Assembly: GCA_021201315.1 (NCBI GenBank)
Contig: JAJQFG010000088.1
Span: forward strand, 1-37,297
Direction of reading: 5' to 3'
Source of the DNA: Erysipelotrichaceae bacterium
Lineage (GTDB): Bacteria > Bacillota_I > Bacilli_A > Erysipelotrichales > Coprobacillaceae
Length of the DNA: 37,297 nucleotides
The notes under the pieces are model-generated. The model did no database searches. It saw only the letters and a list, made by a program, of their open reading frames with translations, and was not told the DNA's origin. Shown piece by piece: positions 19,255-21,773 of the stretch; the first letter of the stretch is position 1, and each line of letters begins with the position of its first letter. The position numbers and the translations under genes are program-made.

Positions 19255-19283
19255 TTGACATATCGTTTTATATTTGCTAGAAT
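19255..19283 (+). promoter_or_regulatory. Strong sigma-A promoter driving the candidate structured RNA
   Basis: TTGACA at 19255-19260 and TAGAAT at 19278-19283 with an exact 17-bp spacer, right after the aminopeptidase stop codon. The predicted start is about 19290, and no open reading frame with a ribosome site follows until 19457. Confidence 0.8.
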
Positions 19284-19289
19284 ACTTGT

Positions 19290-19404
19290 AACAACTTCAA
19301 TAAAATGCAAAGGAGCTTTCCTTGCTGAAGTGATTAATATGTAGATGCTATTTTTAGCATGCTCAAATATTAATAGCTTACGGCATCGATAGCTCCTTTT
19401 TATA
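19290..19404 (+). ncRNA. Candidate structured small RNA or leader RNA with built-in terminator
   Basis: From the promoter at 19255-19283, a transcript of about 115 nt would end at a T5 run. It folds as one long rod: AAAGGAGCT (19309-19317) pairs with AGCTCCTTT (19391-19399); GCTG/CGGC and AAG/CTT (19324-19330 with 19377-19384) pair around one bulged A; ATTAATAT (19333-19340) pairs with ATATTAAT (19367-19374); and ATGCTA (19345-19350) pairs with TAGCAT (19355-19360) over a TTTT loop. Internal loops separate the helices. I do not recognise it: SRP RNA, 6S, T-box and common riboswitch core sequences are absent. It could be a free small RNA or a terminating leader for the small gene at 19457. Confidence 0.55.
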
Positions 19405-19456
19405 TATATTCAAAAGATAAATATTGATGTCGTTTGCCAGAAAGGAAGGAAAACGT

Positions 19457-19723
19457 ATGTCACAAAAACAAATTACAGCTTACACGATTGTCATGCAGAA
19501 TTACAACTCTTATATGTGTGTAAAGGTCAACAAACGAATCTATGCATTTAAATATCGTTGGTATCCTACTTCACAAAAGGTTATTGAAAAAATATCAAGA
19601 GATTTTATCTTAAATGATAAACAAAAAGAGTTTATCAAAAATTGTCATCATGAATTTTATGATGATATGAATAAACAAATCAATTATGCTAAACTCTATT
19701 CCTGGATTGATTCACACAAGTAA
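19457..19723 (+). CDS. Small basic protein of unknown function
   Basis: An 88-residue protein that I do not recognise. It is rich in Lys, Tyr and aromatic residues (KVNKRIYAFKYRWYP), with no membrane segment or Cys motif; a beta-rich N-terminal half and a helical C-terminal half are likely. ATG 19457 has GGAAGG six bases upstream; the frame opens at 19424 without a ribosome site. It follows the structured RNA by about 50 bases and is closed by the terminator at 19732. The ribosome site lies between CGTTT and AAACG, which could form a weak masking hairpin. Being the only gene behind the RNA, it may be controlled by it. Confidence 0.6.
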   Translation: MSQKQITAYTIVMQNYNSYMCVKVNKRIYAFKYRWYPTSQKVIEKISRDFILNDKQKEFIKNCHHEFYDDMNKQINYAKLYSWIDSHK

Positions 19724-19731
19724 TGAAATAG

Positions 19732-19760
19732 CCAAGGCAATTATACTGTCTTGGTTTTTT
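19732..19760 (+). terminator. Rho-independent terminator after the small unknown gene
   Basis: CCAAGGCA pairs with TGTCTTGG (one G-T pair) over a 7-base loop and is followed by six T residues. Confidence 0.85.
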
Positions 19761-19761
19761 A

Positions 19762-19790
19762 TTGACATTTTTAATATTTATGATTAATAT
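19762..19790 (+). promoter_or_regulatory. Sigma-A promoter of the cysteine desulfurase-ttcA operon
   Basis: TTGACA and TAATAT with a 17-bp spacer, about 30 bp before the start codon and immediately after the preceding terminator. Confidence 0.8.
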
Positions 19791-19819: not shown

Positions 19820-20947
19820 ATGATTTATTTGGATTATACAGCCAATTGTCCTACTGATAAAGAGGTATTAGATACATATATCAATACTACAAATAATTAT
19901 TTTGCGAATCCTAACTCATTTCATGACTTAGGGTTGCAAGCTAATGAATTACTCAATAAAAATAGTTTAGAAATATTACGATTATTACATAAAGAAGATG
20001 CTGATATAATTTATACTTCTGGAGCAAGTGAATCTAATAACTTAGTTATTAGAGGTATTGCTGAAAGATATAAAAGTAGAGGTAAACATATTATTATTGG
20101 AAGTTTTGAGCATAATTCTATTACTGTTCCTATTTCTAAGTTACAACAATCAGGTTATGAAGTAGATATTGTTCCTGTTGATAAAGATGGTATTGTAGAT
20201 TTAGAAGAATTAGAATATCTTCTTAGAGATGATACAATATTGGTTAGTATATGTAGTGTTGATAGTGAATTGGGTATTCGCCAACCGATTGAAAAAATTG
20301 GTAAAATACTAAAAAATTATTCATGTTATTTTCACACTGATGCTTCGCAAGCTATTGGAAAAACAGAAATAGATTTTAGTGAAGTGGATTTGATGACTAT
20401 GACACCTCATAAGTTTTATGGTATTAATGGTAGTGGTGCGTTAATAAAGAATAAGAATGTTGGTTTAGTTCCAATCATTGATGGTGGCAAAAGTACAACA
20501 GAATTTAGAAGCGGTACACCTGTACTTGCCAATGTCACAGCTATGGAAAAAGCATTAGATCTTGCAGTCAATAATTATAATGAAAGATATAACATTGTTA
20601 AAGAATATCATGATTACCTTATCAACTTCTTTAAACAATATCCTGATATTCATATCAACAATACAAAATACTCTGTTCCCCACATCATTAACATCTCTAT
20701 CCCAAGTATCCCATCTATGACATTTGCTGATAAACTCAATGAACAACAAATCTATATATCAACAAAGACCTCATGTTGTCCAACTGCCACACCATCTAAA
20801 CTCGTCTATGCTTTAACTCATAGTAAGCAATTAGCATCATCATCTTTACGTATTAGTTTATCTCATCTTACAACAAAAAATGAATTAAAAATATTTACAC
20901 AAACATTTGATCAAATATATAAGGAATTAAAAAATGGAAAAATATAG
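19820..20947 (+). CDS. Cysteine desulfurase (NifS/IscS family)
   Basis: A 375-residue PLP enzyme that removes sulfur from cysteine as a persulfide. Family motifs are YLDYTANCP (N-terminus), TSGASESNN, the PLP-contacting HTDASQAIGK, K198 in MTPHKFYGINGSG, and a persulfide loop at C319/C320 in TSCCPTATPS. RISLSHLTT near the C-terminus fits the family. AAAGGAGG precedes the ATG. It overlaps the next gene by 14 nt, so it most likely supplies sulfur to the TtcA-type thiolase encoded there. It is closer to the short-loop NifS-like group than to housekeeping SufS. Confidence 0.92.
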   Translation: MIYLDYTANCPTDKEVLDTYINTTNNYFANPNSFHDLGLQANELLNKNSLEILRLLHKEDADIIYTSGASESNNLVIRGIAERYKSRGKHIIIGSFEHNSITVPISKLQQSGYEVDIVPVDKDGIVDLEELEYLLRDDTILVSICSVDSELGIRQPIEKIGKILKNYSCYFHTDASQAIGKTEIDFSEVDLMTMTPHKFYGINGSGALIKNKNVGLVPIIDGGKSTTEFRSGTPVLANVTAMEKALDLAVNNYNERYNIVKEYHDYLINFFKQYPDIHINNTKYSVPHIINISIPSIPSMTFADKLNEQQIYISTKTSCCPTATPSKLVYALTHSKQLASSSLRISLSHLTTKNELKIFTQTFDQIYKELKNGKI

Positions 20948-21773
20948 AGAAATAGAAAGAAGTATTATAAAAACTTATCGTAAACAAATATGGAAACCTT
21001 TTATTAAGGCATTACAGAATTATGAGCTTATTAATGAAAATGATAAAATTATGGTTTGTATTAGTGGTGGAAAAGATTCATTTTTAATGGCTAAATGTAT
21101 TCAGGAACTACAAAGACATGGACAAGTTCATTTTGAAGCTAGATATGTAGTCATGGATCCAGGTTATAATCAATATAATCTAGATTATATTAAAGATAAT
21201 GCTAAAATCATGAATGTACCTATTGAAATCTTTGAAAGTCCTATTTTTGATGTAGTTGAAAAATCTGAAGGCAAGAGTCCTTGTTATTTATGTGCAAGAA
21301 TGCGTAGAGGTTATTTATATGCACATGCGCAAAAGTTGGGTTGCAATAAAATAGCATTAGGACACCACTATGATGATGTGATTGAAACAACATTATTATC
21401 GATGTTTTATGGTTCCGAAATAAAAACTATGATGCCAAAATTACATAGTGATAATTTTCCAGGTTTAGAGCTCATTAGACCTTTGTATATGGTTAAGGAA
21501 GCCAGTATTATTCATTGGCATGATGCCAATGAATTGACTTTTATTAATTGTGCATGTCGTATGAGTGAAGGATGTTCTATTATTGATGATGGAACTTCTA
21601 AACGCAAAGAAGTAAAAGAATTAATCAAACGTATGCGTCGCAATAATCCTGATGTTGATCAGCATATTTTTACAAGTATGCATAATGTCAATTTGGATTG
21701 TATTGTTGGCTATCGAAAAGGAAAAGAAAAACACAGTTTTTTAGAGAATTATAATAAAGAAAACGAGATGTAA
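20934..21773 (+). CDS. ttcA: tRNA 2-thiocytidine biosynthesis TtcA-type ATPase
   Basis: A 279-residue PP-loop ATPase. The nucleotide loop SGGKDS is at residues 44-49; the Fe-S cysteines are C117 and C120 in CYLCARMRRG plus C206/C208 in INCACRM; ALGHHYDDVIET is the TtcA-type motif downstream. TtcA adenylates C32 in tRNA and installs sulfur, using a 4Fe-4S cluster. The coding overlap with the cysteine desulfurase gene supports a two-protein thiolation unit. The specific position C32 is inferred from family resemblance. Confidence 0.87.
   Translation: MEKYREIERSIIKTYRKQIWKPFIKALQNYELINENDKIMVCISGGKDSFLMAKCIQELQRHGQVHFEARYVVMDPGYNQYNLDYIKDNAKIMNVPIEIFESPIFDVVEKSEGKSPCYLCARMRRGYLYAHAQKLGCNKIALGHHYDDVIETTLLSMFYGSEIKTMMPKLHSDNFPGLELIRPLYMVKEASIIHWHDANELTFINCACRMSEGCSIIDDGTSKRKEVKELIKRMRRNNPDVDQHIFTSMHNVNLDCIVGYRKGKEKHSFLENYNKENEM

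Follow-up and report, generated by a model that had tools for sequence, protein, structure and literature searches.

A conserved, genus-specific rod-shaped RNA as a candidate terminating leader of an orphan gene in Coprobacillaceae

Introduction

Does the rod-shaped RNA encoded downstream of an M24 peptidase gene and upstream of a small ORF in an Erysipelotrichaceae bacterium act on its own, or does it control the gene that follows it? The question is raised by the layout of the locus within the window (the whole stretch of 37,297 nucleotides that we analysed). The stop codon of the M24 gene lies just 5' of the rod, with a conserved promoter between the two, and the small ORF (19427/19457-19723) lies on the 3' side.

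Results

Layout of the locus

The following features make up the unit:

19255 to 19283, plus strand: promoter, TTGACA-17-TAGAAT with a TG (extended -10), from the promoter scan and four-species conservation
19290 to 19404, plus strand: rod RNA, from the fold (z -6.5) and covariation; putative start at about 19290 and putative end at about 19402-19408
19427 to 19456, plus strand: region before the ATG at 19457; it holds the Shine-Dalgarno sequence (SD) AAAGGAAGG in a weak hairpin (CGUUU/AAACG) or, with 19427 as the start, the first 10 codons; from alignment and folds
19457 to 19723, plus strand: orphan ORF, 88 aa (98 aa from 19427), from dN/dS and the lack of family matches
19730 to 19760, plus strand: closing terminator of the unit, from the terminator scan, with an equivalent hairpin in G001 and G002

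The promoter-like sequence at 19255-19283, with its TG ahead of the -10 element, scored 11/12, which places it among the top three of 33 promoter-like sites in the 5 kb scanned, and it is kept in 4/4 related species. No other terminator was found by the terminator scan between the M24 stop codon and the rod, and a good promoter between the rod and the orphan ORF was not evident in the promoter scan. As no promoter is evident there and the ORF is closed by its own terminator, read-through of the rod is probably the simplest route by which the orphan ORF is expressed. Two further species have the same order of ORF, terminator (19730) and separate promoter of the next gene; in the third species the contig stops at this point. 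A TTGACA-17-TAATAT promoter-like site (19762-19790) precedes a gene for an IscS-like cysteine desulfurase, which is followed by a TtcA-like tRNA thiolation gene (20934-21773).

The orphan ORF is under purifying selection (dN/dS 0.07-0.17), and nothing in Pfam, NCBIfam, PHROGs, PADLOC or PDB matched it convincingly. Weak matches to possible distant relatives (a terminase, an HTH protein and a glycosidase-like protein) were judged by inspection to be due to chance and were rejected, and the AlphaFold model (pLDDT 54) was too low in confidence to use. All four species retain an in-frame ATG at 19427, 10 codons 5' of 19457 (M-S/L-FARKEGK-R/H-M), which overlaps the strong SD.

Fold of the rod RNA

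Computed folding of the RNA of about 110 nt yielded a single rod with internal loops at -40 kcal/mol, compared to -19.7 ± 3.1 kcal/mol for 200 dinucleotide shuffles (z -6.5), none of which was equally stable. Its outer helix comprises 9 bp (AAAGGAGCU/AGCUCCUUU), with 19309-19317 paired to 19391-19399, and the U tract (19397-19401) is short, lies partly within this helix and is followed by ATATATATT. The rod terminator is absent from the list of a simple hairpin scanner because of its long structured 'loop'. Sequence repeat searches revealed no tandem or direct repeats in the rod RNA, and there is no conserved ORF inside it, its short frames varying in length among the four species. A leader peptide was likewise rejected: an SD-like AAAGGAG is followed 6-7 nt on by a TTG, but the frame runs for 2, 3 or 11 codons depending on the species. 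The first-pass annotation had described an ideal TTGACA-17-TAGAAT promoter driving about 115 nt (19290-19404) without an ORF, with a 9-bp outer helix around a rod of helices split by internal loops. The promoter score and its conservation in four species, the computed fold and the species-dependent frame lengths all bear this description out, and its extent agrees with the putative start and end.

Distribution and conservation

BLAST searches revealed the rod element once in the genome of the window and in three other species of the same genus, and a covariance model built from these four sequences matched them and no others when run on 148 genomes of the order. The model also scores 54.7 bits on the minus strand (19293-19415), because the rod is nearly symmetric. 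The whole promoter-rod-ORF unit is present in 4/4 genus members and in 0/144 other genomes of the order, and the orphan ORF occurs in the same 4 of 43 family genomes as the rod. M24 peptidase relatives are found in all 43 family genomes; among the sister genera listed, neither the rod nor the small ORF is present behind the M24 gene, where short simple hairpins occur or none is evident. The unit is chromosomal and single-copy in the four species, without signs of mobility, and no regulon was seen, the motif occurring once per genome. We rejected a mobile or repeated element on the basis that the rod is single-copy in the genome; searches of phage and plasmid collections gave no match, and a motif match in one viral contig was discarded because it sits in unrelated GC-rich DNA. 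Judged from these sequence comparisons, the rod RNA is a real, conserved and genus-specific element.

In an alignment of the four sequences, at least three of which come from draft MAGs and on which both covariation and conservation rest, 97% of the cells stay paired in the rod. Two-sided pair changes were observed at 4 of the 33 rod pairs, a number reached by 6 of 500 shuffles, and slid structures gave 0 or 1. Three of the four changes fall in the middle helix and stem from a single divergent species (G003). As the covariation comes mostly from G003, we regard it as supportive, not conclusive, of a rod conserved by compensatory pairing. The first-pass annotation had named covariation in homologues as a check on the structure, and covarying pairs are indeed present among these four sequences.

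A competing 5' hairpin

Within the rod RNA the following elements can be told apart:

19294 to 19331, plus strand: early 5' hairpin, from prefix folds
19307 to 19325, plus strand: invariant 5' block GCAAAGGAGCTTTCCTTGC, antiterminator-like hairpin plus terminator 5' arm, with 19/20 columns invariant
19333 to 19374, plus strand: apical helix with the invariant ATGCTATTTTTAGCAT (19345-19360), with 30/36 columns invariant
19383 to 19401, plus strand: terminator 3' arm and U tract, from the fold, prefix folds and repeat check

Two stretches of the rod are nearly invariant: the apical hairpin and the 5' hairpin with its bulged A (GCAAAGGAG..TTTCCTTGC). Taking the four-fold sites of the M24 gene as neutral reference (47% invariant among the four species), the invariance of the 5' block (GCAAAGGAG..TTTCCTTGCT) has a binomial P of 7e-6 against the four-fold site rate and that of the apical block a binomial P of 8.5e-6. 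Columns of the middle helix (3/9 and 2/9 invariant) and of the terminator 3' arm (10/18) change about as often as neutral sites, with pairing kept. Since the 5' block is nearly invariant while the middle helix and the 3' arm are nearly neutral, it bears a constraint beyond rod pairing. That constraint could stem from something other than a switch, for instance the binding of a protein or base pairing in trans. Searches for further copies of the 5' block found none (it is single per genome and confined to the genus), nor was a second copy of the apical block with at most 1 mismatch found in the genome.

Prefix folds of 40-90 nt contain the 5' hairpin in 4/4 species, and it vanishes once the 3' arm is made. 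Its inner stem (GCAA-A-GGA/UCCUUGC, with the bulged A) forms in all four species, its outer stem (ACUUCA/UGAAGU) only in G000, the genome of the window, and in G002. In the predicted folds of the four species the 5' hairpin and the 5' arm of the terminator share one strand and are mutually exclusive. As modelled, the rod RNA has the antiterminator/terminator geometry that has been stated in general terms (PMC3369936), i.e. a terminator with an upstream competing hairpin that shares a strand with it. The final rod is predicted to exceed the 5' hairpin alone in stability by about 30 kcal/mol; a switch would therefore need a strong stabiliser or kinetic control.

Comparison with known RNAs

No Rfam 15 match at the gathering score was found for the rod, the weak matches lying far below the cut-offs (chance-level), and the rod sequences of the relatives had no Rfam match either. 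This bears out the first-pass annotation, in which the RNA could not be matched to SRP RNA, 6S RNA, T-box or riboswitch cores. It resembles 6S RNA in being rod-shaped with its own promoter and differs in its length of only about 110 nt and in the lack of an RF00013 match at the rod. Identity with 6S RNA was rejected because the only RF00013 match of the genome is on another contig. This 6S RNA lies at G000:C51:41124-41286 on the minus strand; with 51.4 bits it narrowly passes the threshold of 46.4 set in Rfam.

In the rod RNA, as in the BglG/SacY/LicT RAT elements and the ANTAR targets (PMC3369936), which are protein-controlled antiterminator leaders, an intrinsic terminator before a gene has a 5' arm that overlaps with a hairpin, so that only one of the two can form. 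Unlike these leaders, the rod RNA has no Rfam match, no known regulator gene adjoining it and an orphan as its downstream gene. The antiterminator hairpin of the LicT/SacY RAT is bound by the CAT domain of a BglG-family protein; no BglG-type gene was found among the six neighbouring genes scanned. ANTAR target RNAs have hairpin loops with a critical A1 and G4 (PMC3369936), whereas the loops of the rod are tetra- to pentaloops, GCUU/GUUU-like and UUUU(U), and lack the A1/G4 pattern. By the tests applied, the rod belongs to no described class, yet its predicted structure is that of an RNA working like an attenuator.

Discussion

Our best reading, to which we give roughly even odds (a probability of about 0.5), is that the rod RNA precedes the orphan gene (19427/19457) as its terminating (attenuator-type) 5' leader. 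This reading is favoured because the unit is conserved, the ORF co-occurs with the rod, no promoter is evident between them, a terminator lies behind the ORF and a 5' hairpin competes with the rod; the shortness of the U tract of the rod argues against it. Of the two options named in the first-pass annotation, a small RNA acting alone and a terminating leader, the second is now preferred on the strength of unit conservation, ORF co-occurrence and the competing hairpin, a stand-alone or dual use being less favoured.

Under the leader reading, transcription would start near 19290 and the nascent RNA would form the small 5' hairpin with the bulged A first and the apical hairpin next, an order taken from prefix folding only. 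Once made, the 3' arm would capture the strand AAAGGAGCU and zip the RNA into the rod, leading to termination at the U tract. Termination would be the default state, and read-through would depend on a factor acting on the 5' hairpin: with this hairpin held, the polymerase would continue into the orphan gene. The hairpin might be held by a ligand, by a ribosome sitting on the SD-like AAAGGAG or by a protein, be it an RNA-binding regulator or the product of the gene itself. Termination and read-through at the rod, as well as its signal, are inferred.

The strong conserved promoter, the compact stable rod and the two invariant blocks would also suit a stand-alone small RNA acting in trans, the neighbouring gene having an undetected promoter or living on leak-through. 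We hold this to be unlikely, though worth keeping in mind, as the rod is invariably accompanied by the same ORF and shares its distribution, and as the invariant blocks are mostly double-stranded within the rod. Control could instead be exerted on translation, with UUUCCUUGCU, a pyrimidine stretch in the 5' block, pairing with the SD of the gene (AGAAAGGAAGG) in read-through transcripts, which could add to attenuation. The predicted duplex reaches -11 to -14 kcal/mol in 4/4 species versus a best value of -10.3 for 34 start sites of the window, and it is the minimum-energy fold in G003. Shuffled leaders nonetheless pair equally well in 13-80 of 500 cases, since an SD pairs with any run of pyrimidines, and such control is a possibility that we rate as distinctly unlikely. 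The rod might also be no more than the terminator of the M24 gene, neither regulatory itself nor served by the promoter other than by accident, which would fit the stop codon just 5' of the rod and the lack of another terminator before it. We find this improbable, given that a conserved promoter separates the stop codon from the rod, that the length of the rod goes well beyond what termination requires, that it carries invariant blocks, and that the sister genera listed have only short simple hairpins at this place or none evident.

The order of parts further recalls toxIN, in which promoter, RNA, terminator and gene follow one another with read-through (PMC4147584), an order that the type III loci ToxIN, CptIN and TenpIN (PMC4147584) share with the rod unit. 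In a pair of this kind an abundant terminated RNA would bind and restrain a protein made from rare read-through transcripts, and the restriction of the unit to one genus is in keeping with it. Such a pair is very unlikely in our estimation: the rod RNA, unlike those of the three systems, has no tandem repeats; the ORF is smaller (88-98 aa versus 171 aa for ToxN) and unrelated, matching none of the families in PADLOC, Pfam or PHROGs and, by sequence, no ToxN/CptN/TenpN-type endoribonuclease; and the unit is a chromosomal single copy in four species without mobility signs. Equally slim is the chance of a new RNA-protein pair made up of the non-repeat rod RNA and the orphan protein of 88-98 aa, with the RNA limiting the gene by termination and also binding its product.

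As a terminating leader, the rod would be a terminating RNA not listed so far, confined to one lineage, whose antiterminator/terminator geometry is clear and which is matched by an orphan protein. Should this protein or a ribosome hold the 5' hairpin, the locus would be a compact and easily tested switch; otherwise it would be one more narrow leader RNA.
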